Below, piece by piece: positions 111-63,273 of a stretch of 64,000 bases of DNA; the first letter of the stretch is position 1, and each line of letters begins with the position of its first letter. The notes under the pieces were generated by a model. That model was not told the DNA's origin and did no database searches. It saw only the letters and a program-made list of their open reading frames with translations. The position numbers and the translations under genes were made by a program. Origin of the DNA: an uncultured Lentisphaerota bacterium (GTDB lineage: Bacteria; Verrucomicrobiota; Kiritimatiellia; CAIQIC01); assembly GCA_903889245.1 (NCBI GenBank), contig CAISWQ010000024.1, positions 1 through 64,000 of the forward strand, given 5' to 3'.

Positions 111-188
111 AGCGGGCTTGGAAACGGGAACCGCCGGTTTTCCAAGCCTCGGAGAAACCACGGCTCTCCCATTCCAAGCCTCGGAAAC
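111..188. repeat. Palindromic repeat mini-array, 3 copies (centres about 116, 147, 179)
   Basis: gggCTTGGAAA; TTTTCCAAGCCTCGG; ATTCCAAGCCTCGGAAA; centre spacing 31 and 32 bp. Confidence 0.8.
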
Positions 189-2402
189 TCACTTCTTTGC
201 AGTGGCGGTTTTGACGCCGTAGAAGTTGCAGCGCGCGGGGTCGGCGGGCAGCGCGGAGACGATCATCGGCGGCACTTCCTTGCCGGCGTAGATGAAGACG
301 TCATTGCCGGGGCCCAGCGTGAGTTTATAGGCGGCGCCATCAAGCTCCTGCACGCTCCAGCCCTTGCCGGTGCCGCCCATCAGCAAATATTTTTCGTCGA
401 GCTGCACGCGGCACGTGCCGCCCTTGGCGCTGGTCACGCGCACCCATAGCGTCTTGCCATCCCGGCGCGCGGCGCTGACGAGGAAGCCGCCCTCGGCGCG
501 CAGGTTGTGGAAGGTCGCCTCCTTCCAGCTTGGCGGCACGCCGGGGAAGACGCGGATTTTCCCGCCCCAGCTTTGCAGCAGCAGGTCCTGGATGGACTGC
601 GCGCCGGAGAGCGGCGTCTCGATCACCGGGCTGCCCTCGAGATACATCGTGTTCGGTTTGATATAGCTATCGAGGAACGCGTTCAGCAGCGCCACCGCCT
701 GCTCGCGACGGCCGATGCTCGCGCAGATCGAGCTGGCGCCGGTGTAGGTGTAGCCCTGCAACGCGCCCTTGAAGCCGATCCAGTGGTCGAGCGATTGCTC
801 GATCAGCGCGCGCCGTTCCGGCTGTTCCCAGTTCATCAGGTAGAGCGGATAGATCATCAGCAGGTGCGAGTAGTGCCGGTGCGAGTGGCCGAGCGCCACG
901 CCGCGGCCAATGTCGAGGCCCTTGGCGCTGGTCGGGTAGTCGGTCAGCGTGGCGAGAATGTTCTTCCATTCCGGCAGCAGCGGGTCGGCGAGCTGCAGCC
1001 GTTCATGCTCGATGACGAGCGTCTGGCAGCCCCAGCGCAGCAGCGCCAGGTCATAGTTGCAGTCCGGCGCGGCGCCGTATTCCGGCGAGTAGGTCGGCGG
1101 CAGATGCAGCTTGCCGTCGCTGCCCTTCTCCAGCAGATGACGATAATAATTCACGCAGCGGCGCAGCAGCGGGAGGCAATGGTTCTTGAGCCGCGCGTCG
1201 TCCGCGGCGTAGCGGCACTGACGCCAGTAATTCTGGCACGTCCAGATCAGGTTGCCGACCTCGTTGCCGACCTTGCCGCGGCAGTCATAGCTCGTCACGC
1301 GGCTGATCGCGGCGGAGTCGTGCTGCCACTCCGGCTTCACGTTCTGGATCAGGTTCGTGAGGTTGTTGTCCAGCATCCGGCACAGGCTCTCGCCGAGTTC
1401 GAGGTGATTCGCCGTGTAGACCGGATAATAGGAAAGCTGGATGTTCAGATTCCACCAGATCGCCGGCCAGCCGGTGGTGCGGAACCACGGCCCCATCAGG
1501 TCAATCGCCGGGCGGTCGGCGCGCGTCGCGCTCGCGAGCTTGTAGATTTGAATCCAGTAGAAACTTTCCAGCCGTGTATCCGGGAGGCTCAAGAAACTCT
1601 GCGGATAGAACGCGTGCCACCACGCGCGGTGCGACTCCGCCAGCTTGGCCGCGCCCGTGCCCGCCGCGCCCTCCACCACGCGCACGGCCGAGCCGCGCGC
1701 CGTGGTGCCCGGCCACGAGTTGCCAACGCTGACGAACACAGTGCGCTGGCCCGTGCCCGCGCCCTGCTCCTGCCACGCGGTGGCATATTGCCCGCCCGCC
1801 AGCAGCGGCTGCACGCACACCTGCGTCGCGCCGTCACGCGCCATGACCGAGGGCGGATTCGGCTGATAGTCCTTCGGCGGGCTTCGCGTGCGCGTGCTCG
1901 CCGATTTTTCCGCGACCCACTCCCACGCGAAGTTCTGTTCGCCCGCGCTCGCGTTGAACTCGAACACCGTGACCAGCTCGGTCGCGTGCGTGAACGCGCG
2001 CCAGGAAATTTCGCCGCGGTCGGTGACCAGCTTGCCGGTGGCCTCGGCGTTCCAGAGGTCGAGGCGCATCGTGCCGCTCTTGACCTTGCCGACAGGCTTG
2101 AGCAAAAAGTGGCCGATGGGCAGCCGCGCCTTGTCGAAGCACGCGTTATCGCCGGGCCGGTGATCGGTCACATCGCTGCGCCCGATATCGGCGCGCAGCG
2201 CGCAGTCCTTGTCGGCATAGAGCATCGCGCCGAGCAGGCCGTTGCCGATGAACGCGCCCGCGTCCCACTTATCCGGCATCACTTTCCAGACCAGATCGTG
2301 CCGCGCGAGGAACGCCGGCCAGTCAACCCTGTCTTGGACAACCTCGGCCGCGCAATACAGTACCGAGTTTAACAAAAGCAGAATTACTGGCAATTTCTTC
2401 AT
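189..2402 (-). CDS. Glycoside hydrolase, GH95-like secreted protein
   Basis: Signal peptide MKKLPVILLLLNSVLYCAAE; 'GAFIGNGLLGAMLYADKD' resembles the N-terminal motif of GH95-type enzymes; start chosen at ATG 2402 rather than the longer ORF start. Confidence 0.65.
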   Translation of the reverse strand: MKKLPVILLLLNSVLYCAAEVVQDRVDWPAFLARHDLVWKVMPDKWDAGAFIGNGLLGAMLYADKDCALRADIGRSDVTDHRPGDNACFDKARLPIGHFLLKPVGKVKSGTMRLDLWNAEATGKLVTDRGEISWRAFTHATELVTVFEFNASAGEQNFAWEWVAEKSASTRTRSPPKDYQPNPPSVMARDGATQVCVQPLLAGGQYATAWQEQGAGTGQRTVFVSVGNSWPGTTARGSAVRVVEGAAGTGAAKLAESHRAWWHAFYPQSFLSLPDTRLESFYWIQIYKLASATRADRPAIDLMGPWFRTTGWPAIWWNLNIQLSYYPVYTANHLELGESLCRMLDNNLTNLIQNVKPEWQHDSAAISRVTSYDCRGKVGNEVGNLIWTCQNYWRQCRYAADDARLKNHCLPLLRRCVNYYRHLLEKGSDGKLHLPPTYSPEYGAAPDCNYDLALLRWGCQTLVIEHERLQLADPLLPEWKNILATLTDYPTSAKGLDIGRGVALGHSHRHYSHLLMIYPLYLMNWEQPERRALIEQSLDHWIGFKGALQGYTYTGASSICASIGRREQAVALLNAFLDSYIKPNTMYLEGSPVIETPLSGAQSIQDLLLQSWGGKIRVFPGVPPSWKEATFHNLRAEGGFLVSAARRDGKTLWVRVTSAKGGTCRVQLDEKYLLMGGTGKGWSVQELDGAAYKLTLGPGNDVFIYAGKEVPPMIVSALPADPARCNFYGVKTATAKK

Positions 2403-2452
2403 CACTGATCTCCTGATCAAAGGCGGGAGGGCGAGCCTCCTGGCGAGCCGCA

Positions 2453-2504
2453 ACTGTAGCGGCGGTCTACGACCGCCGTCGGCGGCCATAGGCCGCCGCT
2501 ACAG
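2453..2504. repeat. Dispersed palindromic element TGTAGCGGCGG...CCGCCGCTACA
   Basis: ctgtagcggcggtctacgaccgccgtcggcggccataggccgccgctacag; related copy at 5493-5542. Confidence 0.75.
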
Positions 2505-5420: not shown

Positions 5421-5788
5421 ACTGGAGTAGTGGAGTGTTGGAACTCCAACGCGCCGCCCCGGCGGACTGGCCCCGATGGCGCGCTTGCACTCCTGTAGCG
5501 GCGGCCTGTGGCCACCGTCGGCGGGCATAGCCCGCGCTACAGCTTCCAATGCTTGGGAAAAATCCGGCGAAATTTTCCAAGGATTGGAAGGCATAAACAG
5601 TTTGGAGTGCGGCAGCATGACGCCGCCTTCCGCGGCGCGACGCGTCGCGCCGCCCAAAGCGCGGACACGTCCGCGCACTCCAAAATCTGGCAGGATGCGG
5701 TTTTCAGAGCGGTGTGGCGCGACAGCTCTGTCGTGGGCGGGGCTTTCCAGTCCCGCGTTCCAATACGCCAGCACTCCACTACTCCAGT
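5421..5788. repeat. Composite intergenic repeat region bounded by a 17-bp perfect inverted repeat
   Basis: actggagtagtggagtg 5421-5437 and cactccactactccagt 5772-5788; contains the GTAGCGGCGG element (5493-5542), two 31-bp palindromes (centres 5551, 5582) and TTTGGAGTGCG...CGCACTCCAAA (5601-5611/5674-5684). Confidence 0.75.
5542..5591. repeat. Palindromic repeat mini-array, 2 copies (centres 5551, 5582)
   Basis: cTTCCAATGCTTGGGAAAA and TTTTCCAAGGATTGGAAG; spacing 31. Confidence 0.8.
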
Positions 5789-13963: not shown

Positions 13964-14076
13964 TCTTCCAAGGATGGGAAAGCGGGAACACCGGTTTTTC
14001 CAGGGTTTGGAAAAGTTCCGTGCCTGTGTTCCAAGGCTTGGAAAAAGCCCGTGCTTTTTTTCCGGGGCCTGGAAAG
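13964..14076. repeat. Palindromic repeat mini-array, 4 copies (centres 13973, 14005, 14036, 14067)
   Basis: TTCCAAGGATGGGAAA; TTTTCCAGGGTTTGGAAAA; GTTCCAAGGCTTGGAAAA; TTTTCCGGGGCCTGGAAAG; spacing 32, 31, 31. Confidence 0.85.
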
Positions 14077-22849: not shown

Positions 22850-25800
22850 AGCAGGCCCATCCAGCCTCCACCGGTGCGGCACTTTTCCAAGGCTTGGAAA
22901 AACAGCGGAGGATTTTTCCAGGGCTTGGAAAAGCGTGGGCCTCTTTTTTCCAATTCCTGGAAAAACCACGCGCCGGCTTTTCCAATCCCTGGAAAGGCGT
23001 TTGGCCGCTGCTACTGCTCGGCGCGGCGCAGGGCGCGCTGGATTATGACTTCGCGACGCTGGCCGGCCAGATGGGCACCAACGGCTCCGCCAACGGCACG
23101 GGCAGCGCCGCGCAGTTCGATCAACCCGGCGGCCTCGTGATCGCGAGCAACGGCACCCTCTATGTCGCCGACTCCGCGAACCACACCATCCGCGCCATCG
23201 CGCCCGGCGGCGTGGTCACCACCCTGGCCGGCAGCGCGGGCCTGTCCGGCACGAACGACGGTGTGGGCGCGGCGGCGCGCTTCAGCTTTCCGCAGGGGCT
23301 GGCGCTGGACAGCAACGGCCATCTCGTCGTGGCCGACACCGGCAACAGCACGATCCGCAGGGTTACACCGGAGGGTGTCGTGACCACCTTCGCCGGCAGT
23401 GGCGGACGATCCGGCACGAACGACGGTGTGGGAGCGGCGGCGCGCTTTTTGCATCCCTATGGCGTGACCGTGGATGGCGCGGGCCAGCTTTTCGTGACGG
23501 ACACCGGCAACGACACGATCCGCAAAATCACGCCGCTCGGCGAGGTGACCACGTTCGCCGGCCAGGCCGGGAGCAGCGGCAGCACGGATGGCACCGGCCA
23601 TCTCGCGAGCTTTTTCTCGCCCACCGGCATCGTCGTGGATCGCAGCAACGTGGTCTTTGTGGCCGATACCGACAACTCCAAGATCCGCCGCCTCGACGCC
23701 GCCGGCAACGTCTCCACTTTCGCCGGCGCCACGGAACCGGGCCACCTCGATGGCACTGGCACGGCGGCAAGTTTCTCCCAGCCCTATGGCTTGGCGCTGG
23801 ACGCGGTCGGCAACCTCTATGTGGCGGACAAGGGCAATGGCGCGTTGCGCCGCATCAGCCCAACGGCGGAGGTGACGACCTCGGCCAATTCCACCAACCT
23901 CGTCGGTGGCCTCGCGCCGCAGGCGGTGGCTGTGGACACCGGCGGCAACGTCCTGCTCGCCGACACCGGCAGGCAGGTGGTGCGGAGTGGCGAACTGACC
24001 GGGGGCGGACTGATCCTCGTGCAGGCGGGCACCGGCGGCGGCGAGGTCAGCGGCTCCGGCCTCTTCCTGAACGCCTCGAACGTGCAACTTTCCGCAACCG
24101 CCTCCCATGGCTGGGCCTTCCTGAACTGGAACGATGGCGACACCAACAGCACGCGCACCATCACCGTCGCCGGCAGCGCCACCTACACCGCCACGTTCGG
24201 CCAATGGGGCCTGGTCACCGTGTTGGTTGTTCCGACCAACGCGGGCAGCGCGAGTGGTGGCGGTTCCTATGCGCTGGGTTCCCATGCGCTGCTCACGGCG
24301 ATCGCCTCCAATGGCTGGCAGTTTGCCAGTTGGAACGAAACGATCACAAGCAATCCGTGGCCATTTGCCGTGTCGCAGGCCACGACCTGCACGGCCTATT
24401 TCATCCCTGCACGCACCGAATATGTTTTTCAGGATGACTTCGAGCAGGGTCTGGGTAACTGGTCGGTGAGCGGTAGTGGCGCGCGCTGGGGCTTGCAGCC
24501 TTGGCCTTTCGGCGGCACTTCGGTTTGGTGCGCCGCGGATTCCGGCGATGGTTGTGCACCCTGGGGTGCGGCCTATCGGTATGCCAACAGCATGGACACC
24601 CGTCTGGAGCGTTCGTTCGACCTGCGCGGCTACACCACGGCCACGCTGCGCTTCGATTACAAACTCCTCACGGAAAGCGCGCATGATTTTCTGAAGGTGT
24701 ATATCAATGGTGACGAGGTGTTCAGTCAGAGTGGTTATGCCAACTGGAGCGCGACCGGCGCGGGTGCCGAGCGCGCAGGTTTCCACAGGGAACTCGACCT
24801 TTCGGCCTACTGTGGACAGGCCGGCGTCACGGTAAGGTTTGCTTTCGAGAGTGATGCTACCTTGGATGGCAGCAACCTCTCCCTGGGGATGGATGCCGGA
24901 GCGGTGGGCGCCCTACTGGATAATATGCTGATCTTTGGTTCGCGACATCCGACAGGTCAAAAGGTGCTGGGTGTCCCGGTCAAAGGAAAGTTACACCTCC
25001 TGTGCTGCGGGCAGTCAAACATGGCAGGCGCATCAGATGGTTATGGCACTTTACCCGCCTACATGCAGGCCGATGGCAGCGGGGCCTCGAATTGTTACTT
25101 CCACAATTTCTGGGAGAGTCCTGGCTTGACCAACTCGTATGGTCCCCTGCGAGCGTTTAACGCCTCCTACTGGGGGCCGGAGCTGACCATGGGCGATCAA
25201 CTCGCCCGTCAACTGCATATTCCTGTCTTCATCAGCAAGTGGGCGTCGGGGGGGTCCGATCTGGCGAATATGTGGCGCAAAGGCGTCCATGGTTTTTACA
25301 CGAATATCGTCCCCACCGCCACCGGCACCTCGAATGTCTGGCCAACCGCAGGCAGTGTGGACGCCTTCATCTGGGTGCAGGGAGAAAGCGATACCGCAGC
25401 CTTCACCAGCGCCTACGCCTACGAAGCCCATCTGCGGCAATTTATCGCCGATGTACGCGCCGACCTTGGACAATTACACCTCCCCTTCCTCATCCTGGGC
25501 TTGAGCGAAAAATTCCAGACCAACACGTTGGGCAACGCCGTCTGGCAAGCGCAGCAGCGGGTGGCCGCCACCGACCCCGATGTTTTCTTTATCGCCGCCG
25601 ACGGCGCACCGCGCCAACCTGCGCCGTGGGATTCACATTATACCAGTGCGGGCTATCAGGAGATCGGACAACGCCTGGCCAGCAACCTTGTGAGCGCCGC
25701 CAGAGTGATCAGCCCGGCGATAGCCAGCAGCGTCACCAATGACGCTCATGCAATCAGTTCCGCTGGCGTGACCTGTTGGTTGCCATGCGAGAGCACCAAC

Positions 25801-33561: not shown

Positions 33562-33675
33562 TTTTCCAAGCCTTGGAATTTTTCACCGCCTTTTTTCCAA
33601 AGCCTGGAAAAACTCCCCCTGATATTTTCCAAACCCGGGACAAACGACCCTGCGCCTCTGCCAACGTTTGGAAAC
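33562..33675. repeat. Palindromic repeat mini-array, 4 copies (centres 33571, 33602, 33634, 33666)
   Basis: TTTTCCAAGCCTTGGAATT; TTTTCCAAAGCCTGGAAAA; TTTTCCAAACCCGGGAC; GCCAACGTTTGGAAAC; spacing 31, 32, 32; between convergent genes. Confidence 0.88.
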
Positions 33676-40191: not shown

Positions 40192-40293
40192 GTTTCCAGG
40201 GACTTGGCCCGCAGCAGCGGGGTTGGCCAGTCGCACCCGCGGTTTTTCCAAGGCTTGGAAAATCTCGCTCGAATTTTTCCAAGCCTTGGAAAA
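40192..40293. repeat. Palindromic repeats: phased pair (centres 40253, 40284) plus a degenerate upstream copy near 40201
   Basis: TTTTTCCAAGGCTTGGAAAAT; TTTTTCCAAGCCTTGGAAAAG; spacing 31; divergent intergenic region. Confidence 0.88.
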
Positions 40294-44567: not shown

Positions 44568-44617
44568 ATTTCCAGGCCTTGGAAAATCCCACATGATTTT
44601 TTCCAGGCCTTGGAAGG
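44568..44617. repeat. Palindromic repeat mini-array, 2 copies (centres 44577, 44608)
   Basis: ATTTCCAGGCCTTGGAAAA; TTTTCCAGGCCTTGGAAG; spacing 31. Confidence 0.88.
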
Positions 44618-58705: not shown

Positions 58706-59311
58706 TCACTTCCGAATCCGTACGCGTTCCGCGAGCACGATGGCGCGGAGGTGGTCATAGGCGGTCTGCAGTTCATCGTTGATGACAAGGTAGCTGAACT
58801 CGCGCCAGCGCGTCATCTCGCCCGTGGCCTGCCGGACTCGGTGCGCGATGACTTCCGCGCTGTCTTGACCGCGGCCGGTCAGGCGCGCACGCAGCGCGTC
58901 GAGCGAGGGCGGTGCAATGAAGATATCCACGAGTGGCGGCGCGTGTGGCGTTTGTTGGAGTGAAGCGCGTATGCTGGCCGCGCCCTGCACATCCACATTG
59001 AGCAGCACGTCCTGTCCTTTTTTCAAGGCTTGGAAAACCGGCTCGCGCGGCGAACCATAGCTATGGTCGTGCACGGTGGCGTACTCCAAGAAACCGTTTG
59101 CGGCGCTGCGCCGCTCGAACTCGTCTTGCGTTAAAAAGAAGTAGCTCTGCCCTTCGACCTCGCCCGGACGCATCGGTCGTGTGGTCGCCGTAACCAGTGT
59201 GTAGAGCGAGGCTCCGAACTCGGCCTTGAGCATTTCGCAAAGCGTAGTCTTGCCCGCGCCCGAAGGCGCGGAGATAAGGAAGATGATGGGCTTGGAGCGT
59301 TGCTCATTCAT
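58706..59311 (-). CDS. gmk: Guanylate kinase
   Basis: PIIFLISAPSGAGKTTLCEML...TTRPMRPGEVEGQSYFFLTQDEFERR...DVLLNVDVQGAASIR. Confidence 0.95.
   Translation of the reverse strand: MNEQRSKPIIFLISAPSGAGKTTLCEMLKAEFGASLYTLVTATTRPMRPGEVEGQSYFFLTQDEFERRSAANGFLEYATVHDHSYGSPREPVFQALKKGQDVLLNVDVQGAASIRASLQQTPHAPPLVDIFIAPPSLDALRARLTGRGQDSAEVIAHRVRQATGEMTRWREFSYLVINDELQTAYDHLRAIVLAERVRIRK
59019..59037. repeat. Single repeat-like palindrome inside gmk
   Basis: TTTTTCAAGGCTTGGAAAA, one mismatch to the 19-bp consensus; encodes VFQALKK. Confidence 0.5.
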
Positions 59312-61390: not shown

Positions 61391-61406
<16 letters not shown>

Positions 61407-62035
61407 GTTTCGATGAACCTCTTCACGGCGGCCAAATCCTTTTTGCCCGGCTGCGCCTCGACGCCGGAACTAACGTCCACGCCCCACGGCCGCACGGCGC
61501 GGATGGCCTCGGCGATATTCTCCGCGCGCAGCCCGCCGGCGAGCAAAACCTTCGTGCGGCTCGCCGCCACGAACGCGCGCGCCGCTGTCCAGTCTACGGT
61601 CTGGCCCGTGCCGCCGGGCGCGGCCGGACTATAACTATCGAGCACCAGAGCGTCAACGAACGCCGGCGGTGGCGTCGTTTCGCGATCGAGTCGGACGACT
61701 TTCCAAAGCTTGGAAACGCCAGACAGTGTTTTTTCCAAGGCTTGGAAAAAACCGGCGTCTGCTTTTCCAAGGCTTGGAAAACCGTGCCATTGAATCACGT
61801 CGAGCTGCGCGACGTCCACCGCGCGGCGGATGTCTGCCACGGATTCATCCACGACCACGCCGACCTTGAGCAGGCCCGGCGGCAGGTCGCGCGTCCACTC
61901 GGCGACCTGCTCCGGCCGGACAGCGCGTTTGGATTTGGGCCAGAGCACGAAGCCGAGCGCGTCCGGCTTGAGCGCCGCGACCGCGGCGACATCCGCCGCG
62001 TTCGCCAGCCCGCAAATCTTGACAAAAATACCCAT
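61391..62035 (-). CDS. trpF: Phosphoribosylanthranilate isomerase containing an in-frame palindromic-repeat array
   Basis: [88 protein letters not shown] all intact. Confidence 0.94.
61699..61781. repeat. Palindromic repeat mini-array, 3 copies (centres 61708, 61740, 61772), inside trpF
   Basis: CTTTCCAAAGCTTGGAAAC; TTTTCCAAGGCTTGGAAAA; TTTTCCAAGGCTTGGAAAA; spacing 32, 32. Confidence 0.93.
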
Positions 62036-63223: not shown

Positions 63224-63273
63224 CGTTCCAAGCCTTGGAAAAATCGCGTTCGCCGTTTCCAAGCCTTGGAAAA
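63224..63273. repeat. Palindromic repeat mini-array, 2 copies (centres 63233, 63264)
   Basis: CGTTCCAAGCCTTGGAAAAA; GTTTCCAAGCCTTGGAAAAC; spacing 31; between tandem genes. Confidence 0.92.

Follow-up and report, generated by a model that had tools for sequence, protein, structure and literature searches.

What does a short palindrome do when it recurs, in small regularly stepped groups, at many separate places of one bacterial chromosome? The question arises from the window, a 64,000-nucleotide stretch of DNA from an uncultured Lentisphaerota bacterium, in which TTTTCCA-N5-TGGAAAA forms nine clear groups of 2-4 copies together with a single site at 59028 (Table 1). The initial annotation offered three guesses for these arrays: cooperative sites for a dimeric nucleoid-type or partition-type protein, a structured RNA series, or a selfish non-autonomous element. 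The source genome of the window, 5.26 Mb in size, is called the own genome here; detailed statistics derive from 1.07 Mb of it, complemented by whole-genome pattern counts.

The motif, its abundance and its distribution

The window holds 22 matches to TTTTCCA-N5-TGGAAAA with at most 2 mismatches, compared with 0.09 ± 0.32 in dinucleotide shuffles. Throughout the whole own genome, the exact pattern TTCCA-N5-TGGAA occurs at 1,815 sites and its reversed control at 8, while site pairs at 31/32 bp number 743, compared with 0 for the reversed-pattern control. Adjacent gaps within the 1.07 Mb include 198 of 31 bp and 97 of 32 bp, followed by rarer values such as 42 and 52/53 bp. Site counts and spacing data thus establish both the enrichment and the 31-32 bp peak, the two features whose absence had been named beforehand as speaking against the pattern. 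The centres initially listed were all recovered except 116, which falls below the score cut-off.

The consensus derived from the 1.07 Mb is a 19-bp odd palindrome of near-perfect two-fold symmetry, TTTTCCAAG(S)CTTGGAAAA, with T4...A4 arms. Its central 5 nt, originally described as variable, are constrained, with AAG(S)CTT dominant, G/C in 80% at positions ±1 and A/T in 87% at positions ±2. The linkers do diverge as annotated, carrying little information except that they are A/T-rich at the edge and GC-rich in the middle, and being mostly unrelated; the description of them as not conserved needs qualifying only for a small excess of 12-13 bp linkers that are near-identical between separate arrays. 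Comparison of the own genome with relatives at 7 loci gave 81% identity for palindromes versus 55% for linkers. Linker modules recur in arrays at separate places of the genome G041 (e.g. AACTTATAGAAAAACTTCC), which suggests that its arrays were made partly by copying.

A 295-genome sample of the phylum contains at least 50 sites in 33 of 97 genomes of the same class, and none of the other 198 genomes exceeds 30. Among the sampled genomes the motif is confined to the class Kiritimatiellia, where its occurrence is patchy, ranging from 0 to 2,320 copies and, within the single genus g42, from 20 to 2,320. Titles of records containing the motif, among the matches listed, point to Kiritimatiellia, some under older or broader labels. 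Viral contigs hold the pair in 12 stretches only; phased arrays of several sites are present in the viral contigs L230, L231 and L238, which may represent provirus or host DNA. Outside the class, G107 has no match to the motif but matches the reversed control AAGGT-N5-ACCTT 56 times, perhaps reflecting another iterated palindrome. A literature search found no description of such repeats in Kiritimatiellia.

Table 1. Palindrome arrays and the single site of the window, with their surroundings
Feature	Centres	Positions	Strand	Context
Array of 2	147, 179	138..188	.	Just past the stop codon of gene 189-2489 (minus strand)
Array of 2	5551, 5582	5542..5591	.	Upstream of an msrA-like gene, in a divergent gap; adjoins a REP-like palindrome
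Array of 4	13973, 14005, 14036, 14067	13964..14076	.	Between two tandem minus-strand genes
Array of 4	22892, 22923, 22955, 22987	22883..22996	.	Junction of two tandem plus-strand genes; downstream gene start uncertain
Array of 4	33571, 33602, 33634, 33666	33562..33675	.	Convergent junction; last two sites weaker
Array of 2 (perfect sites)	40253, 40284	40244..40293	.	Divergent gap adjoining lpxK
Array of 2	44577, 44608	44568..44617	.	Between tandem plus-strand genes
Single site	59028	59019..59037	.	Within the guanylate kinase gene gmk (58706-59311, minus strand)
Array of 3	61708, 61740, 61772	61699..61781	.	Within trpF (61391-62035, minus strand), in frame FPSLGK / FQALEK / VSKLWK
Array of 2	63233, 63264	63224..63273	.	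Between tandem plus-strand genes

The sites of the array at 13964..14076 are also present in G001 and G002 and were not seen in G003. The window gave a single Rfam match, to a tRNA. A second dispersed repeat, CTGTAGCGGCGG...CCGCCGCTACAG, is REP-like with a GTAG tag and occupies 2446-2507 and 5490-5543 of the window as well as many places in sister genomes; it constitutes a separate family, located near only 5 of 221 arrays.

Helical phasing and the array unit

Site pairs up to 130 bp apart in the own genome occur at offsets of 31/32, 42, 52/53, 62/63, 73/74, 83/84, 94, 105, 115 and 126 bp, with scarcely any between, corresponding to 3 to 12 turns at 10.5 bp. The 31/32 bp spacing is consequently one member of a 10.5-bp series and not the sole spacing, as it had been described. 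Other species add a 22-bp spacing (2 turns) and differ in their preference for 31 or 32, with 32 bp accounting for 83 of 94 adjacent gaps in G001. Pairs within single genes are phased just as sharply (R = 0.92, n = 68), including those more than 33 bp apart (R = 0.85, n = 14), for which a period of 3 gives just 0.19. In G122, phasing can be followed to 130-300 bp (R = 0.58, p ~0.02, n = 11), weakening at greater distances. Exact pairs at 34-39 bp were absent from 24 of the 28 genomes searched, the own genome included; the exceptions are four genomes of g42, a genus with looser phasing, which have 5 to 16 such pairs each. Three members of g42, G193, G257 and G276, have some sites 17 bp apart, recurrent similar modules spaced by ~35 bp, and AATGATT centres. 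A ladder of 8 sites at L053:14654-14937 advances in steps of 42, 42, 42, 42, 42, 42 and 31 bp, 42 bp being 4 turns.

It is hard to account for the offset pattern unless proteins come together on the same face of the DNA duplex. Binding at the level of DNA is well supported, and it is highly probable that the palindromes are same-face protein sites. Each 19-bp palindrome would bind a putative dimeric, probably helix-turn-helix, protein, its TTCCA half-sites lying 10 bp apart in consecutive major grooves on the same side of the helix. Dimers occupying sites 2, 3 or more whole turns apart would share that side and could touch or bridge, which would account for the grouping of sites as pairs, double pairs or phased ladders. 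Own-genome arrays after extension comprise 70 of one site, 102 of two, 29 of three, 38 of four and 10 of five; G001 has 87 pairs, 60 singles and 3 larger groups, and the sites of G122 are mostly singles. The basic unit seems to be the pair, and quartets seem to be two pairs.

Gene context and the origin of coding sites

Gene calls were obtained from a simple codon-usage predictor, in which starts and small genes are approximate. Site density in the own genome is 1.43 per kb of gap between tandem genes, 1.44 between divergent and 1.42 between convergent genes, in agreement with the initial annotation that arrays occur in all three settings alike, to which intragenic positions must be added, as in trpF and gmk. 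Arrays situated outside gaps of at least 60 bp between two predicted genes make up 68 of 228 (~30%) in the own genome, some of them at contig ends, and 94 of 137 in G122. Array-to-array distances in the own genome are more even than when arrays are placed at random in distinct gaps (CV 0.61 vs 0.81 ± 0.05), as are those of arrays with at least 2 sites (CV 0.54 vs 0.80 ± 0.06). Even spacing was not seen for all arrays of G001, in which multi-site arrays less than 1 kb apart are rare (1% vs 9-11%), and the sites of G122 are clustered (CV 1.09 vs 0.86), so even spacing is limited to some genomes.

Coding sites occupy all three frames, most commonly frame 0, which yields the peptide FQxLE. In the DNA covered, the palindrome encodes this peptide in 25 of 25 cases in G001, in 22 of 24 cases for the own genome and in 22 of 28 for G122, and FQxLE in Kiritimatiellia is mostly a by-product of the palindrome. 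The three TrpF peptides of Table 1 are likewise recurrent and imposed by the DNA motif. The trpF gene contains three sites in the own genome, two in G001, one in G003 and none in G002, and TrpF is colinear at the site stretch in G002 and G003. A gap test for insertion, covering the coding sites of G122, found 15 of 21 gapless at the site relative to homologues. Examples include ETIWWVFSELWKQGR versus its homologue ETIWWAFKQLWEQGR, in what we take to be an aminoacyl-tRNA synthetase, and IIRSKDWKLIYY versus IIRQGAWKLIHY, presumably in a sulfatase. These gapless alignments indicate that the motif in genes often arose through point substitutions and not through insertion. Some coding arrays are located in tolerant linkers, e.g. 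those following signal peptides in sulfatase-like proteins.

Candidate binders and competing explanations

The closest functional parallel is provided by Lrp/AsnC operators, exemplified by Ss-LrpB of Sulfolobus, whose 13-17 bp palindromes are aligned along a single side of the helix with their centres two or three turns apart, with dimers binding cooperatively and the DNA being wrapped (PMC2995911). One-face placement is shared by the present arrays, with spacings of 22, 31/32 and higher 10.5-bp multiples; the difference is that Lrp/AsnC arrays serve limited target sets, whereas here up to thousands of constant-sequence sites occur, many of them intragenic. An Lrp/AsnC-family match was found in 56 of 60 genomes tested, one or two in each, the four absences all being site-poor. 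There is one main orthologue per genome, and its recognition helix varies from one site-rich genome to another although these have the motif in common; the site-free relatives G004 and G005 also carry an orthologue, and Lrp was therefore rejected as the binder. By analogy, the palindrome arrays may work most like Lrp/AsnC operator arrays at the scale of uptake sequences, and we assign them to neither group, since Lrp fails the recognition-helix comparison and palindromic symmetry is absent from the uptake sequences known.

Noc/ParB sites, too, are palindromic, lie dispersed over the chromosome and are recognised by a helix-turn-helix protein (PMC4331003). The present sites differ in their far greater number, their centre, their phased arrays and, in genomes rich in sites, the lack of an extra ParB-family protein. 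Nearly all genomes, site-rich or site-poor, have just one strong HTH_ParB match, additional matches being weak and mostly in site-poor genomes; no ParB/Noc paralogue emerged as a candidate, and the partition-type protein among the initial guesses is not supported. Protein clustering across 38 species and three genomes, aimed at an autoregulated gene beside the arrays, gave two small clusters only (4 and 3 species), neither resembling a DNA-binding regulator, and the genes adjoining the largest arrays included no obvious binder candidate.

Operators of a conventional global transcription regulator controlling many genes could well be palindromic, cooperative and phased, as is typical of Lrp/AsnC-type regulators (PMC2995911), but we regard this explanation as improbable, given that no divergent or start-proximal preference exists, convergent gaps are equally dense, arrays in tandem gaps lie closer to the end of the preceding gene than to the beginning of the next, and many sites are deep within genes. 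The chief rival, though still unlikely, is that the palindromes are DNA uptake (self-recognition) sequences, favoured by competent cells when taking up DNA, and spread and kept by molecular drive via recombination without a function for each site; it explains the coding sites, the patchiness and the even spacing, and leaves symmetry and phasing unexplained. Known uptake sequences, such as the USS and DUS of Pasteurellaceae and Neisseriaceae, are likewise dispersed, high in copy number, patchy by lineage and present in both coding and non-coding DNA (65% in ORFs in H. influenzae), and their even spacing has been remarked upon; as described, they are not palindromes (DUES; PMC1939737), in contrast to the near-perfect 19-bp palindrome found here. 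The origin of coding sites by substitution, recurrent peptides such as FQxLE and the even spacing of the own genome also accord with uptake, and the ComEC family is present in 56 of 58 genomes. Its near-universality, whatever the site number, makes it a poor discriminator between site-rich and site-poor genomes, and G003, with 418 sites, has no ComEC match in an assembly ~94% complete. To our knowledge, uptake sequences are not set in helix-phased arrays and offer no parallel to the helical phasing of these pairs and ladders.

Spread as REP-like selfish repeats by a transposase is very unlikely. Such an origin would suit the high copy number, the mainly intergenic location, the near-identical linkers of some arrays and the linker modules of G041, and the GTAG- and CGTC-tagged REP/BIME elements are likewise high-copy palindromes that lie mainly between genes in regularly spaced groups (PMC2817692, PMC3733652). 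However, the linkers are mainly unrelated, coding sites often lack indels, insertion would not be expected to give 10.5-bp phasing, and a separate GTAG repeat already exists in the same genome. The Y1 transposase, present in 53 of 60 genomes, site-rich and site-poor alike, and absent from G184 with its 196 sites, does not correlate with copy number. The selfish-element guess thus loses ground, at least for coding sites. RNA hairpins, acting as terminators or mRNA stabilisers, are hardly credible, although the inverted repeats are near-perfect, are common downstream of stop codons and are denser in convergent gaps of G001 (3.0 vs 1.5-1.7 per kb). Selection on hairpins would favour G-U pairs, yet mismatched palindrome positions on the transcribed strand comprise 260 G-U and 277 A-C, so the palindromes do not behave as RNA hairpins, which tells against the structured RNA series; nor do the T4...A4 arms, without a hairpin followed by a U-tract, the helical phasing and the sites within coding sequence fit such a role. 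HIP1 of cyanobacteria is another highly iterated palindrome, of unclear function (PMC4390886), and differs as a methyltransferase-linked octamer, GCGATCGC, with GATC and CGATCG sites; the motif here is 19 bp long, contains neither by inspection, and is arranged in phased arrays.

Among the three initial guesses, cooperative sites for a dimeric nucleoid-type protein give the best fit to steps of 10.5 bp over 2 to 12 turns. The complete explanation, cooperative same-face sites for a putative dimeric DNA-binding protein acting chromosome-wide, is assigned a probability of roughly 0.6. A candidate sequence-specific nucleoid protein would bridge, wrap or loop DNA at many points, and is considered most likely in place of a gene-specific regulator because the sites number hundreds to thousands, are orientation-blind and are kept inside genes. 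For the role itself, chromosome-wide architecture has slightly better than even odds. A range of 20 to 2,320 copies within one genus is surprising for a core architectural system, drive would explain the override of protein sequence more easily than selection on one site among a thousand, even spacing fails in G122 and across all arrays of G001, and g42 contains some off-phase pairs. A mixture of bound protein and drive is possible.

Should the palindromes prove to be uptake signals, they would be the first palindromic, helix-phased ones known to us and would give an initial indication of biased transformation in the class Kiritimatiellia. Sequence specificity is low in many bacterial nucleoid proteins, which makes the holding points of a chromosome hard to read from sequence. 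More tentatively, the arrays may represent a distributed sequence code for chromosome folding, in which a putative sequence-specific protein bridges phased palindrome pairs every few kb and selection or drive writes the sites into intergenic and coding DNA. Were this so, the holding points of a chromosome would be readable in sequence and countable in any genome, and the range of copy number among congeners, from 20 to 2,320, would make the effects of the sites on folding, gene content and protein sequence testable.
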